64,000 nt of DNA, taken from the NCBI RefSeq assembly GCF_002090135.1, contig NZ_BBRL01000011.1:1-64000 (forward strand), written 5' to 3'. Both the position numbers and the translations under genes were made by a program. A model generated the notes under the pieces. The model worked only from the letters and a program-made list of their open reading frames with translations, had not been told where the DNA came from and searched no databases. Source of the DNA: Demequina sp. NBRC 110055 (GTDB lineage Bacteria; Actinomycetota; Actinomycetes; Actinomycetales; Demequinaceae). Every line of letters begins with the position of its first letter. Positions within the stretch are counted from its first letter, which is position 1. Positions 3,696 to 31,209 of this stretch are shown piece by piece.

Positions 3696-5138
3696 TTAGT
3701 CGACGCGCCCCTCGTCCGTACCGCCCTTGCGGGCGGCGCGCCACCTGCGGCCCTGGCCCGGCAGGGGTCGGACGGGACCCACGGTGCGCCGCGGCACGGG
3801 CTGACCCGCGCCAGTACGTGCGAGATGCGGAGCCCTCGGCGTGACGGCAACCATGCCGGGCACCATTGCGGTCAGCGCCACGAGCATGTACCACCCGCCC
3901 TCGACGAGGAGGCGCGACTCCGACAGGGCTTGCACCCCGAGCGCCGCGATCAGCAGCGCCCATGCGACCGGTATCCACGACGAGTGACGTTCGCCGCGCT
4001 GCACCACGCGCCATGACCGGAAGAACACCGATCCCACGAGCACCACAAGCAAGATCAGCCCGACGACGCCCAACTGCAGCCATGAGTCGAGGAACGCGTT
4101 GTGCGCGTGAGTCGCGCGTTCGGTGGTCTGGTCAACGATGCTGGCGTACGGGTCTGACCACACGGGCCAGTACCCCACGAATCCCCAGCCTTCGACCCGG
4201 TCACTCGCGACCGAGATCACGCGCTCCCAGATCTCGGTGCGGTTGGTGAGGTCGGAGTCGCGGTCGAGCATGGCGAGCACGGCGTCCTTGTACCGGTACG
4301 ACATCCATCCCACGACCGCGGCTGTACCCAGCAGGTACAGCGATACCGTGGTGCGGGCGTGGGTGTCGGCGTGGCGGACGACCACGGCGACGCCGAAGAG
4401 GACCGCGACCACCAGCGCCATCACGGCCACCGTCGCCGACTGGGTGAGGAGCAGCACGGCCGCCGAGACGGCGAGGGTAATGAAGGCGTTACGTCGGCTC
4501 ACCCGGCGCTCGAGGTACAGCATCAGCGCGAGGATGGCGGTGAGCAAGGCGATGGCGGCGAACGGGTTGCGATTGCCCACGAAGCCCTGGATGGGGCCGC
4601 CCTCAAGCAGGTGGTTCTCCGACCACATGAACGGTGAGGTCTTCTCGGTGAGCCCCGCCAGTCCCGTGAGATCGGACACCAGGGGCCGTACCTCGTCGCG
4701 GATGAAGGCCGCCACGATCAGTTCGAACGACACACCCAACAGCAGTGACCACTGCAGGCCGCGGTAGAGCAGTTCGAGGAAGCGCGAGGTACCGAAGTTT
4801 TGGACCGTCACGATCGCGACATAGGTCGTGGCGACCGTGACCAGTGCCGCGAGCGCCGTGACCGCGGGAGTGACCGACCAGATCACGCTCAGCCCGGTCA
4901 GCGCGACAAACGCGAGCACCACGACGGAGAGCTTGACGCGGGCGGCCGAGGTACGAAAAGCAATCGCGACGGCGGTGACGGTCACTACGGCAAGCACCGA
5001 GTACAGCGCCATGCCGAGGAGGTAGCGGAAGCCTTGACCGGACACGAGAAAGACCACGGACCACACGGCGACGGCCTCGCGACCGTGCGTGGACGCGAGC
5101 CAGCGCAGGGCTCTCTCGCGGGCCGTAGCCGTCTCCAT
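3696..5138 (-). CDS. O-antigen ligase / Wzy-like polytopic membrane protein
   Basis: A 480-residue membrane protein with about ten hydrophobic segments and one long external loop (around residues 285-345) containing an HAHNAFLDSWLQLGVVGL motif. The HxHN...L motif in the last large loop is the hallmark of O-antigen ligase/polymerase (Wzy_C) proteins, which join or polymerise lipid-linked sugars outside the membrane. In a Gram-positive cell it likely acts on a wall or capsular polysaccharide. The chosen ATG follows an AGAGGAGG ribosome site; an ATG 21 nt upstream is less well placed. No other glycan genes are near. It is convergent with ppgK. Confidence 0.82.
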   Translation of the reverse strand: METATARERALRWLASTHGREAVAVWSVVFLVSGQGFRYLLGMALYSVLAVVTVTAVAIAFRTSAARVKLSVVVLAFVALTGLSVIWSVTPAVTALAALVTVATTYVAIVTVQNFGTSRFLELLYRGLQWSLLLGVSFELIVAAFIRDEVRPLVSDLTGLAGLTEKTSPFMWSENHLLEGGPIQGFVGNRNPFAAIALLTAILALMLYLERRVSRRNAFITLAVSAAVLLLTQSATVAVMALVVAVLFGVAVVVRHADTHARTTVSLYLLGTAAVVGWMSYRYKDAVLAMLDRDSDLTNRTEIWERVISVASDRVEGWGFVGYWPVWSDPYASIVDQTTERATHAHNAFLDSWLQLGVVGLILLVVLVGSVFFRSWRVVQRGERHSSWIPVAWALLIAALGVQALSESRLLVEGGWYMLVALTAMVPGMVAVTPRAPHLARTGAGQPVPRRTVGPVRPLPGQGRRWRAARKGGTDEGRVD

Positions 5139-8761: not shown

Positions 8762-10054
8762 TCAGGCGATCGGACCCTGGGTGAGGGTCGCCGTCGCGCT
8801 GTGCTGCTGGCCTGCCGCGTCCGTCCACGAGACATCGACGCTGTCCCCCGGCTCCCTGGTAGTGAGCGCCGCCGTCAGGTCGTCGGCACCGGTGATGTCC
8901 GCACCGTCGAGAGCGGTGATGGTGGCGCCGCGCTCCAGCCCGATGGCCGCAGCCGGCGTGTCCGCGTAGACGCCTAGCACCGTGGCGCCACCCGTCGCGG
9001 TCTGACCGTACTGCGCCGTAGCGCCGATGGCGACGCCCAGCATGGCGGGGTAGCCGATCGTGACGGTGCCGGACTCGTCCCCCGCCTGGATCTGAGCGGC
9101 GATGGCGAGGGCCTCGTCGATGGGTACCGCATAGGCGATGGTGGTCGCCAATCCGCTCGAGGCCGCGGTCGTCATCCCGACCACCTCGCCCTCGTCGTCG
9201 AGCAGGGCTCCGCCGGAGTCACCGCCGACGACATCGGCCTCGAACTCGATCATGGAGTCGAGGGTCTCCCCCGCCACCGCGTACTCGGACGAGGTGGTGA
9301 CGGACGCGTCGAGGTCGGTGATCGCGCCGTCGGCCGCCATCAGGACGCCGCCGCCCTCGGCGTTGCCGACCGCGGTGACCACCTCGCCCACGCTGGCGTC
9401 GTCGTCGTCGATCGTGACGGTGCTCAGCCCGCTCGCGTCATCGAGTTGCAGGAGCGCCACGTCCTCGGTCGCGTCGGTGCCGACCAGGTTCGCCGTGTAC
9501 GTCTCCCCGGTGGAGCCCACGGTGACGGTGATGTCGGTCGCGCCCTCGACGACGTGATTGTTGGTCAGGATCAGTCCGTCGCTGGTGAGGACCATGCCTG
9601 TGCCCGCCGCCTCGGCTGCTTCATAGCCCAGGACGGTGTCGATCATCACGAGCCCGGTGGCCTCGGCGTCGCTTGCGGCCGTCGCCTCGGCCTGCGTCGA
9701 CGCGACGCCCGTCCAGGTCTGCGCGTCGCCGGGCACGGCGGTGACGCCCTGCTGTCCTTGTGCCAGCCACGCCTGGTACCACTCCTGGTAGAGCTCCTCC
9801 CAGTCGGGGCTCGCCTGGTCGCGACCGGCGACCCGGGCCGCAGCCGAGGTGGATCCCTGCGCGGAAGCGACACCCGCAGCGTGAGCCGCCGCGGCATCGG
9901 CCGGCGTTTGTCTGGGCGCCCGCACGATCACGCCGGTGGCGACCGCGCCGACGGCCAAGGCCGCGACCGCCGATGCCGCGAGGGCCTTCCGGGCGCGCCC
10001 GCGACGCCGTGGTGCGGGTGAGGTGGTGGGTCGGTCGTCGACGTGGTCGTCCAT
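8762..10054 (-). CDS. HtrA-like membrane-anchored serine protease with PDZ domain
   Basis: An extracytoplasmic quality-control protease of the S1C (DegP/HtrA) type. Residues 1-23 are a charged cytoplasmic tail, 24-46 a membrane anchor, then a linker to about 125. The trypsin-like domain has the triad His167 (LTNNHVV), Asp198 (EDVALLQL) and Ser280 (GGDSGGAL). A PDZ domain covers roughly 330-420 (GVYADTPAAAIGLERGATI). The start has an AGGAGG ribosome site 5 nt before ATG, but that site is locked in a stem (10060-10108), suggesting translational control. It follows the SNF2 gene by 69 nt on the same strand. Confidence 0.93.
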   Translation of the reverse strand: MDDHVDDRPTTSPAPRRRGRARKALAASAVAALAVGAVATGVIVRAPRQTPADAAAAHAAGVASAQGSTSAAARVAGRDQASPDWEELYQEWYQAWLAQGQQGVTAVPGDAQTWTGVASTQAEATAASDAEATGLVMIDTVLGYEAAEAAGTGMVLTSDGLILTNNHVVEGATDITVTVGSTGETYTANLVGTDATEDVALLQLDDASGLSTVTIDDDDASVGEVVTAVGNAEGGGVLMAADGAITDLDASVTTSSEYAVAGETLDSMIEFEADVVGGDSGGALLDDEGEVVGMTTAASSGLATTIAYAVPIDEALAIAAQIQAGDESGTVTIGYPAMLGVAIGATAQYGQTATGGATVLGVYADTPAAAIGLERGATITALDGADITGADDLTAALTTREPGDSVDVSWTDAAGQQHSATATLTQGPIA

Positions 10055-10059
10055 GGCAT

Positions 10060-10108
10060 CCTCCTGGCTGGTGTCCTGGTCTCTAGTTCAGGACGCCCAG
10101 CCGGGAGG
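10060..10108 (-). promoter_or_regulatory. Hairpin sequestering the htrA ribosome binding site
   Basis: In the direction of the htrA transcript the first arm (10108-10089) pairs with the second (10078-10060), with one mismatch and one bulge over about 18 bp, around a loop of about ten nt. The second arm ends in AGGAGG, the only Shine-Dalgarno sequence of the protease gene, five nt before its ATG. It may act as a translational switch such as an RNA thermometer, or as a terminator for the upstream SNF2 gene, although no T-run follows. Confidence 0.6.
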
Positions 10109-10123
10109 CGGCAGGGAGAATGC

Positions 10124-12331
10124 TCAGAAGTGGCTCAGAGTGGTGGCCTCGTCCGCTTGGAGGGCGTCGACCAGCAGGCCGACAAGGGCCTCCATCTGGA
10201 CGTCGACCTGGCTGGTCACCTCGTCCTCCGCGGCGCCGTCCAGGGCTCGCGCGGCAAGTCCAGACTTGCTGTCGATGAGTTCGGCGATGCGCGAGTCGAT
10301 GGTCTGAGCGGCAAGAATGCGCCACGCCGTGACCGGCTCGGATTGGCCGATGCGGTGGATGCGGTCGATCGCCTGCGTCTGTTCCGCATCGGTCCAGGAC
10401 AGCTCCGCGAGGACCAGGTTGGAGGCGACCTGAAGGTTCACGCCCACGCCCGCCGACATCAGCGAGCAGACGATGACGGAGACCTCGGGGTCCTCGGTGA
10501 ACGCCTTGATGCTCGCCTCTCGCGCCTTGGCGCTCTGGTCGCCGCGCAGCGTCACGAACCGGATGCCACGCTCGGTGAAGACCTGCTGTGCCTCGTCCAT
10601 GACGTCGATGTGCTTGGCGAAGAACACCACCTTGCCCGCGTGGTGCACCAATTGGGCCGTGTAGTCCGCGGCGAGAGACGCCTTCGCCTGGCCAATGCGC
10701 CGCACCATCGAGAACACGTTCTCGCCGAGCTTCTTGTCGCTCGAGTCCTTGAGTTCCGCGGCCGCGATGCGCCGCGCGAGATCGAGGTCGATGCCGTCGG
10801 TGAGGTCTGTGTGAGTGCCGGTCGACTCGGGTCGGGCCGCGAGCGCGCGGCGGTATTGCTCGACCATACGCGCAGCGAGGGCGGTCTCGGCGGCGCGAAT
10901 GGAGCGCCCCTCCGGGCCGTCGAGTTCGACCGCGAGGTCGGCGACGCGGCGCGCAGGAATGTCCGCCGCCACGTCGACCTTTCGGCGGCGCACGATGCCC
11001 TGGGACACCACCGCGGCGCGGGCCGCCGCGTAGAAGCCGCGGTCCGTGGGGATCAGCCCCGTCTCTTCGAGCGCGTTGATAAGCGAGCCCAGCGGCTTGT
11101 CCGCGTCGATCCACCCGAGGAACTCCCAGATGGCACGGAAGTCGTCGACATCGTTGATGAGCGGTGTGCCGGTGAGGGCCATGAGGAGGGGGCGGGGGGT
11201 GCGCTTGCGGATGCGGTCGGCCAGGCCAAGGACGTGCTGGGAACGCTGCGAGGTCTTGTTCTTGATGAAGTGCGCCTCGTCGACCACCATGCCGCGGAAG
11301 CCGTGGTCGGCAAACCAGCCGACGTGACGGTCGAGCACCGCATAGTTGACGATGATGACGTCGGCGAAGGCGTCGACCTCGTCACCGTCGCCGTGGACGA
11401 CCGTGGCCGTGCGGTGCGGGGTCCACAGCGAGACCTCGCGCGCCCAGTTCATCTTGACGACGTTGGGGGCGACCACGAGCAGGGGGTACGCGTCGGCTGC
11501 CTCGGCCGCCATGAGCGCCTGCGCTGTCTTGCCCAGGCCGGGCTCGTCGGCCAACAGGAATGTGCGGTGACCGGCCGCGGCCGCGGCAACGAGCTGTTCC
11601 TGGTGCGGCATGAGGGCGCGGCCACCCGGTGCGCGCAGCGGCGCGGGCAGGGTGTCGCCGTCGGGAAGTTCCATACAGGCGCGCGCACCCGGTGCGTCGC
11701 GCTCGAATGCATGGAACAGGGGGTCGAGCAGTTCCCAGCCGGCGAGCCGGCGCGGACGTGCCTGGGCGCGTTCGCGCGCGGCGGTGAAATCGGGCGCGAG
11801 GAAGGGGTTGGCGAGCTGGCGTGACAGCGCCGACTGCGGCATGACCTGCTTCGACGTGTCGGCCTTGGGTGCGGACGCCTCCCGTGCCACGGGCTCGTCG
11901 GACGCCTCGCGGCCCGCCTTGGCGAGCAGGTTCTCCTTGTATTCGCGAGCCGTCGAGCTCACCCGGGTGTCCTCGGCCAACAAAATGAGCAGCGAGGTGT
12001 CGCGCACGGCGACCTTCGCGAGGATGGTCGCGAGGCCGTCCAAGCGCTTGATGGCCTGCTCCCGCTGTGCCGGCGTCAGGGTGGCGTCGGCGTTGACCGC
12101 GGCGCGCTCCTCACGGATCAGCAGCGCTGCCACCTGAAACTTGGTGCGCAGGGAGGCGCGGGTGGGCGGGCGCTGGACGGCGCGGTCGATCTCGCGCGCA
12201 ACGCTCGCGAGGACCTCGAGCAGATCCTTCGGTGTCGCGGGTCCGGTGGACCGGCCTCGCGTCGTTGTACGCCGACTGCCGGCGCCCCCGCGCGCTCGGC
12301 CGGACCGGCGCTGCTGCTCGGGTCGTGCCAT
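10124..12331 (-). CDS. SNF2-type DNA helicase/ATPase
   Basis: A 735-residue Swi2/Snf2 ATPase that likely remodels or translocates on duplex DNA. Helicase motifs are Walker A DEPGLGKT (262-269), DEAH (351-354), motif III LTGTPL (about 382-387), and the C-terminal lobe with VVFFAKHIDVMDEAQQVF and motif VI QAIDRIHRIGQ near residue 650. The first 200 residues are an Arg/Ala-rich, probably partly disordered and helical region of unknown role. The start follows GAGGAGG. It lies just downstream of rnpB and upstream of htrA. Confidence 0.9.
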   Translation of the reverse strand: MARPEQQRRSGRARGGAGSRRTTTRGRSTGPATPKDLLEVLASVAREIDRAVQRPPTRASLRTKFQVAALLIREERAAVNADATLTPAQREQAIKRLDGLATILAKVAVRDTSLLILLAEDTRVSSTAREYKENLLAKAGREASDEPVAREASAPKADTSKQVMPQSALSRQLANPFLAPDFTAARERAQARPRRLAGWELLDPLFHAFERDAPGARACMELPDGDTLPAPLRAPGGRALMPHQEQLVAAAAAGHRTFLLADEPGLGKTAQALMAAEAADAYPLLVVAPNVVKMNWAREVSLWTPHRTATVVHGDGDEVDAFADVIIVNYAVLDRHVGWFADHGFRGMVVDEAHFIKNKTSQRSQHVLGLADRIRKRTPRPLLMALTGTPLINDVDDFRAIWEFLGWIDADKPLGSLINALEETGLIPTDRGFYAAARAAVVSQGIVRRRKVDVAADIPARRVADLAVELDGPEGRSIRAAETALAARMVEQYRRALAARPESTGTHTDLTDGIDLDLARRIAAAELKDSSDKKLGENVFSMVRRIGQAKASLAADYTAQLVHHAGKVVFFAKHIDVMDEAQQVFTERGIRFVTLRGDQSAKAREASIKAFTEDPEVSVIVCSLMSAGVGVNLQVASNLVLAELSWTDAEQTQAIDRIHRIGQSEPVTAWRILAAQTIDSRIAELIDSKSGLAARALDGAAEDEVTSQVDVQMEALVGLLVDALQADEATTLSHF

Positions 12332-12390: not shown

Positions 12391-12772
12391 GCGGATGAGT
12401 TGGCCGGTACGCCGGGTTCTGTCGGGTGCGCGCGTTACCGCCTCGCACCGGGCGACCATCCATCTAGGCCCTGGATTGCTCCAGGGCTCCAGCGACCTAC
12501 CCGAGAGCATCGGGCGGGCAGCCCTCAAGCGCTCTCTGTCTGGCCTTGCTCCGGGTGGGGTTTACCATGCCGCTTCCGTCGCCGGTCGCGCGGTGAGCTC
12601 TTACCTCACCCTTTCACCCTTACCTCCGGCCGAGGCCGAAGGCGGTCTACTCTCTGTGGCACTGTCCCGCGGGTCACCCCGGGTGGCCGTTAGCCATCAC
12701 CCTGCCCTGCGGAGCCCGGACGTTCCTCGGAACCCTGACGGGTCACGCGGCCGCCTGGCCAACTCATCCGCG
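12391..12772 (-). ncRNA. rnpB: RNase P RNA, type A
   Basis: Catalytic RNA that trims the 5' ends of tRNA precursors. The two ends form the P1 helix: GCGGATGAGTTGGCC at the 5' end (plus-strand 12757-12771) pairs with GGCCAACTCATCCGC at the 3' end (12391-12405). The universally conserved core is readable on the minus strand, including the GAGGAACGTCCGGGCTC stretch near 12705-12735 and the GAACCCGGCGTACCGGCC 3' segment near 12403-12420. The ACAGAGAGTAGACCGCC segment of actinobacterial rnpB is at about 12640-12660. Ends are placed by the P1 pairing and could shift by a few nt. Confidence 0.95.
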
Positions 12773-21166: not shown

Positions 21167-21180
21167 GCGTCACCTGCCTC

Positions 21181-21224
21181 ACGACGAAGCCCGCTCTCGC
21201 CTCGGCGAGGGCGGGCTTCGTCGT
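21181..21224 (+). terminator. aceE transcription terminator
   Basis: ACGACGAAGCCCGC is repeated inverted as GCGGGCTTCGTCGT, a 14-bp stem extended inward by CTCGCC/GGCGAG pairing, starting 15 nt after the aceE stop. It probably also serves the convergent membrane protein gene. Confidence 0.85.
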
Positions 21225-21251
21225 GGGGGCGGCCGATGCCGTGGCTGGCTC

Positions 21252-31143: not shown

Positions 31144-31154
31144 CGCGTCGCCTC

Positions 31155-31204
31155 ACGACAGGAGGGGCGCGAGATCCACAGTGGTCTCGCGCCCCTCCTG
31201 TCGT
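31155..31204. terminator. Bidirectional terminator after csbD
   Basis: A perfect 20-bp stem (31155-31174 with 31185-31204) around a 10-nt loop, between the csbD stop and the end of the convergent DUF1905 gene. Confidence 0.85.
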
Positions 31205-31209
31205 CTGGG

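Follow-up and report, generated by a model that had tools for sequence, protein, structure and literature searches.

A hairpin over the htrA ribosome site of Demequina probably derives from a conserved response-regulator promoter and is very unlikely to sense temperature

The SNF2-htrA locus and its hairpin

The window analyzed here comprises the first 64,000 nucleotides (nt) of contig NZ_BBRL01000011.1 of Demequina sp. NBRC 110055, a genome of 2.8 Mb in 14 contigs. On its minus strand, a gene for an HtrA-like protease (8762..10054) lies downstream of a gene for a SNF2-type helicase (10124..12331; Pfam SNF2-rel_dom and Helicase_C), with a gap of 69 nt. The protease identity proposed in an initial annotation was borne out by a trypsin-like protease domain and a PDZ domain (Pfam Trypsin_2, 9.5e-27, and PDZ_2, 2.8e-06). 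The subject of this analysis is the hairpin that RNA from this junction can form over the htrA ribosome site, which that annotation had read as a possible RNA thermometer, and the htrA promoter that the same DNA probably contains.

The minus-strand RNA from 10108 to 10060 was predicted to fold as a single hairpin of 17 base pairs (-32.1 kcal/mol), made up of CCUCC/GGAGG, a 1x1 C-A mismatch, GGCUGG/CCAGCC, a 2x1 internal loop, and GUCCUG/CAGGAC closing a 10-nt loop (AACTAGAGAC, 10079..10088). The first arm spans 10089..10108, and the second arm (10060..10078) contains the ribosome site, with the Shine-Dalgarno (SD) sequence AGGAGG at 10060..10065, read from 10065 to 10060 and ending 5 nt before the htrA ATG. 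All but one of its six bases are paired, GGAGG with CCTCC. The fold and the coordinates thus agree with the earlier description of a stem of about 18 base pairs with one mismatch and one bulge (here, a mismatch and a small internal loop) that has the SD sequence at its end, and with the expectation that the ribosome site is locked in mRNA reading through from SNF2.

The energy of this hairpin is by itself unremarkable, as equally strong hairpins are common in the GC-rich window: 57-nt segments with an energy of -32 kcal/mol or lower formed 52 clusters on the minus strand, counting the htrA hairpin, and the plus strand had 49. The same DNA read as plus-strand RNA folds more stably (-38.5 kcal/mol). 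Compared with its own shuffles, a 101-nt segment gave a z of -3.6, with 0 of 200 shuffles as stable. Elsewhere in the window, very strong hairpins were found at 21175-21232 (-52.5 kcal/mol) and 31150-31207 (about -48 kcal/mol), and these are possibly terminators.

A GC-rich hairpin located soon after the SNF2 stop codon could be the transcription terminator of SNF2, and hairpins 3′ of SNF2 were also seen by eye in some genomes that lack htrA. However, no U-tract follows the hairpin on either strand (0 terminator-like sites), no single conserved stem past SNF2 was apparent by eye in the genomes without htrA, and the second arm is itself the ribosome site of htrA. The terminator explanation was rejected as unlikely.

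A conserved promoter block upstream of htrA

Homologues of htrA (E <= 1e-50) were found in 21 of 44 Demequina genomes. The upstream DNA of all 21 was aligned, with start codons picked by their SD match, and by hand where several candidates fitted. In every one of them htrA is preceded by an ungapped block of four TC-N3-G half-sites whose period is exactly 11 bp, followed after 10 bp by a -10-like hexamer, TGRRNT, and then by the ribosome site. The half-site T (columns 32, 43, 54, and 65 of the alignment) is invariant at all four positions. The C is invariant at columns 33 and 44 and present in 20/21 at column 55 and 19/21 at column 66, while the G is invariant at columns 37, 48, and 59 and present in 19/21 at column 70. 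In the hexamer, T81 and T86 are found in all 21 sequences and the second base is G in 19, and the GGAG of the ribosome site is likewise found in 21/21.

In the window, the block matches the pattern at 10085-10139 on the minus strand. Half-site 1 (TCTGAGC, 10133..10139; T, C, and G columns all 21/21) lies in the coding end of SNF2, half-site 2 (TCTGAGC, 10122..10128) follows 11 bp further and contains the SNF2 stop codon (10126-10124), and half-site 3 (TCCCTGC, 10111..10117) follows after another 11 bp. Half-site 4 (TCCCGGC, 10100..10106) occupies the -35 position and overlaps the CCTCC that pairs with the ribosome site in the hairpin. Half-sites 2 to 4, like the first, were identified both in the alignment and by the pattern. 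The candidate -10 hexamer, TGAACT (10085..10090), lies 10 bp past half-site 4. The initial annotation had cautioned that TAGAGA in the loop might be a promoter giving mRNA without the first arm; comparative evidence fits such a promoter, and the caveat came near the predicted hexamer, as TGAACT (10090-10085) has its final T in common with TAGAGA.

A composite pattern, set after the alignment had been viewed, gave 24 matches in 20 of the 44 genomes, and its reversed control gave 0. Nineteen of the 24 are htrA promoters, so that 19 of the 21 genomes with htrA are represented; G012 and G037 are the exceptions. With an earlier, more literal operator pattern, the window site was the sole match in its genome. 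A matrix from which the window and its sister genome were excluded scored the window site at 25.6, its own register shifted by 11 bp at 2.8, and the next place in the 64 kb at -7.8. The gene 5′ of htrA varies: it is SNF2 in four genomes (G000, G026, G031, and G011), and the other genomes have different genes there or none nearby. Since the block stays while the upstream gene changes, it belongs to htrA and not to SNF2. In G011 (locus L022, a 50%-complete genome), htrA and SNF2 are apparently split into several frames, perhaps through sequencing error.

Direct half-sites with a fixed 11-bp period at the -35 position are the arrangement of PhoP/PhoB-type operators, and the conservation suggests that the DNA of the first arm is part of the htrA promoter, contributing to both operator and -10 element. 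The TAWATAAA motif of CutR, described for Streptomyces htrA3 in PMC12802291, was not a match. Farther afield, CCCAG and CTCAG were seen by eye 11 bp apart upstream of an htrA relative in Nocardia (L027, L028, L030, and L035) and Nocardioides (L081); such repeats would fit an old origin of the operator within Actinobacteria.

The predicted transcription start

The position of the -10 element can be gauged from other genes carrying the same operator. In three genomes (G021, G027, and G029), the operator precedes a small lipoprotein-like open reading frame (ORF), with the same hexamer ending exactly 6 nt before the ATG. Similar 6-nt spacing was seen by eye at the promoter of the candidate regulator gene (see below) in most sequences inspected. 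Leaderless genes are common in Actinobacteria, and a 6-nt spacing between hexamer and ATG fits a leaderless start, which supports the -10 assignment. The hexamer would then probably end with its T at position -7, so that the predicted htrA start falls at the very beginning of the second arm (10078 or 10077). An mRNA made from this promoter would have a leader of about 24 nt and would not contain the hairpin. The predicted cost of opening its ribosome site at 30 °C is 6.4 kcal/mol in the window, compared with 18.6 kcal/mol in read-through RNA (these, and all melting and opening figures below, are model energies computed in silico).

In the three Demequina genomes (L155, L159, and L165), the leaderless-looking lipoprotein-like gene with the operator has an alpha/beta-hydrolase-like ORF next to it. 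Two similar composite matches without a clear downstream gene were recorded in G029 and G021 (L160 and L166).

The inverted repeat could also be a DNA operator, to which a second, dimeric repressor binds over the -10 element and the predicted start. Its inner palindrome, GTCCTG-N10-CAGGAC, overlaps both elements and is shared unchanged by the window and its sister, but it is missing from the block in the other genomes, and there is no candidate protein. We regard such a repressor site as quite improbable.

The candidate regulator

Matches to Trans_reg_C were found at 10 loci in the window's genome, and only one of these, a PhoP-like gene at C4:342030-342710, has boxes near its own start. Its half-operator score is 11.9, compared with 6.0 or less for the other nine, and its best full-operator score, on the divergent strand, is 1.8, compared with -12.5 or less. 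Among 30 orthologous loci, taken from the 38 genomes with a match, strict half-site pairs at any position in the 200 bp upstream were found in 14/30 on the plus strand and in 28/30 on the minus strand, where 0.07-0.10 pairs per 200 bp and strand are expected. This regulator occurs in all 21 genomes with htrA and in 17 of the 23 others. A candidate regulator of the PhoP/PhoB type, with boxes in its own promoter, is thus present. Its best solved relative is Mycobacterium tuberculosis PhoP (235 bits), and MprA is absent from the list of its solved matches. Of the six base-facing PhoP residues named in PMC4832192, four are kept and two are conservatively swapped (N to S and S to T; positions read from the alignment). 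Sequence comparison suggests that the regulator of htrA is of the OmpR/PhoB class and most likely the PhoP-like protein encoded at G000:C4:342030-342710.

Divergent from the regulator gene lies a cluster of DUF4956, VTC, and carbohydrate-binding (Cthe_2159) genes (L191:705-3848, 3910-3966; G000:C4). A four-half-site box with a TGAGAT -10 element is directed at this cluster (L191, G000:C4).

Predicted response of the hairpin to temperature

The initial annotation proposed that the hairpin closes the ribosome site in the cold and melts at heat-shock temperature, so that HtrA is made. The pairing of the ribosome site ahead of a stress-protease gene fits this proposal, and thermometers between cistrons are possible (PMC4166951, section 3). 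However, the predicted hairpin did not open within the physiological temperature range. For five of the six SD bases, pairing in read-through RNA was 99% or higher at 55 °C and 81% or higher at 85 °C, and the cost of opening the stretch from SD to ATG fell only from 18.6 kcal/mol at 30 °C to 15.6 kcal/mol at 42 °C. Read-through mRNA would hold both arms, whereas the predicted promoter-made mRNA has no first arm at all. A strong hairpin is also seen only in the window and, to a lesser degree, its sister, while all 21 genomes have the promoter block. An Rfam scan of the window at the gathering threshold matched no thermometer family, and returned only RNase P and one tRNA; the RNase P RNA (class A; 12392-12766, minus strand) adjoins the upstream side of SNF2. 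A role of the htrA hairpin as a temperature sensor is therefore very unlikely on modeled melting and on conservation, and the thermometer is scarcely credible as an account of this locus.

Ribosome-site pairing in read-through RNA across genomes

The half-sites are CTCC-rich and complementary to GGAGG, so RNA that contains the operator is predicted to pair its ribosome site. At 30 °C, predicted SD pairing in operator-containing RNA was at least 0.76 in 20 of the 21 genomes and, with the exception of one tie, exceeded that in RNA from the htrA promoter itself. SD pairing was 0.87 with real and 0.68 with shuffled upstream DNA (Wilcoxon p 3.5e-4, a value that is too good because the 21 genomes are related). 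The opening-energy difference, read-through minus own transcript, had a median of 2.4 kcal/mol and was negative in 3/21; the window ranked first of the 21 (12.2 kcal/mol), and its sister showed 2.1 kcal/mol. By eye, there was a hint that the lock goes with a nearby upstream gene in the same orientation, and no conclusion here depends on it. In the folding model, the lock on the ribosome site is a physical consequence of the operator sequence.

A further possibility, which would add to the promoter explanation, is that selection has favored the lock as a shield of htrA against SNF2 read-through, in the manner of phage T4 gene e. The strength of the window lock and the general excess of SD pairing over shuffled DNA favor selection, as do shuffles of the leader that keep the half-site, -10 element, and ribosome site: 0 of 300 were as stable as the window leader (z -4.5), and the sister leader gave a z of -2.9. 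The sister hairpin, too, still reaches -27.0 kcal/mol with 10 of 55 nt changed, which was rare under simulated drift (0.048 in one direction and 0.001 in the other). However, its outer pairs are re-registered and not conserved pair by pair, and its opening-energy difference is small. G031 and G011, the other pair of genomes with SNF2 before htrA, showed no such retention (0.93 in one direction, 0.014 in the other). The negative differences in three genomes and the inflation of p values by kinship argue in the same direction, and SNF2 read-through is itself hypothetical. Selection of the lock is thus possible but rather doubtful. The hairpin is best regarded as a by-product or an insulator, and not as a thermometer.

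Proposed mechanism and significance

From conservation, spacing, and predicted folding, which are read from sequence, we infer which regulator acts, where transcription starts, that it is activated, and what selected role the lock might have, and propose the following mechanism. A response regulator of the OmpR/PhoB class, likely PhoP-like, would bind the four half-sites, which are repeated in tandem every 11 bp and reach into the end of SNF2. The bound half-sites would substitute for a -35 box, and the regulator would recruit RNA polymerase to the weak -10 element TGAACT. Transcription from about 10077-10078 would yield the normal htrA mRNA, with the short leader described above and no first arm, in which the ribosome site would be much cheaper to open. 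In mRNA entering from SNF2, the ribosome site would be folded away, and an extra inner stem in the window's species would make this lock very strong. Its effect would be to keep htrA off SNF2 read-through mRNA, and no heat sensing would be involved.

Four points weigh against this promoter explanation. The second base of the -10 element is nearly always G instead of the usual A, and the htrA box is the sole full composite site in the window's genome. A second regulator, L139, is equally PhoP-like (235 bits), which makes the regulator's identity less certain, although L139 has no boxes. The transcript from the htrA promoter is only partly open, its SD bases being 36-40% paired (leaders of 22-31 nt) or its GGAG 78% paired, depending on the coding length folded. 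On balance, we consider the promoter explanation as a whole to be quite probable.

A guess at heat sensing is thereby replaced with a concrete promoter, for which a regulator can be put forward and a start site predicted. Together, htrA, the regulator's own operon, and the divergent DUF4956-VTC operon form one probable Demequina regulon. If the lock was selected, one stretch of DNA would serve as both operator and translational insulator. Tentatively, and with less confidence than in the promoter, one might envisage a cellular device resembling that of T4 gene e, in which the operator of a response regulator would also act as an anti-ribosome-site, so that the gene's own promoter is switched on while read-through translation is silenced; CTCC-rich operators beside GGAGG could then insulate for free across Demequina, and perhaps in the wider Actinobacteria. 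These results also call for caution, as CTCC-rich operators mimic ribosome-site hairpins by themselves.

Comparison with known systems

The htrA promoter proposed here is of a kind already known, and its details are new. Among the literature matches listed, with their titles and abstract openings, there was no bacterial case of htrA regulation by such logic, and none of the Demequina titles listed dealt with such control of htrA. The locus shares a paired ribosome site with RNA thermometers, but its hairpin is far too stable, and the first arm is absent from the predicted htrA mRNA.

The closest likeness is to the PhoP operator of M. tuberculosis (TCACAGC-N4-TCACAGC) and to promoters of the PhoB/OmpR class. 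According to PMC4832192, PhoP of M. tuberculosis recognizes TCACAGC repeats that must be 4 bp apart, which gives an 11-bp period, and it binds tetra-repeats more tightly; a PhoP dimer near -35 was proposed at lipF and pks2 in PMC3413638. The Demequina block has the same tandem direct TC..AGC half-sites, 11-bp period, and -35 position. It differs in that the third base of the half-site is mostly T or C instead of A, in that its target is htrA, and in that binding is a prediction.

Control of an HtrA-like gene by a response regulator is also shared with the MprA-htrA/pepD systems of Corynebacterium and Mycobacterium. The C. glutamicum htrA gene is under MprA, with the site TTTTCAGCAA and a reported consensus of TKTTAAGAAM (PMC12113857). 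That site resembles half-site 1 (TTCTCAGCAA) of some relatives. Differences are this consensus and the best solved match of the Demequina candidate, which is PhoP; the regulator may be of the PhoP or the MprA type.

For the lock, the parallel is T4 gene e and I-TevI, in which, according to PMC3014915, long transcripts lock the ribosome site and promoter-made transcripts do not carry the first arm. There the arrangement serves phage timing, whereas here it would concern a bacterial stress gene and is predicted only. In both cases the promoter, predicted in Demequina, lies within the DNA of the first arm, and the SD sequence lies in the second.

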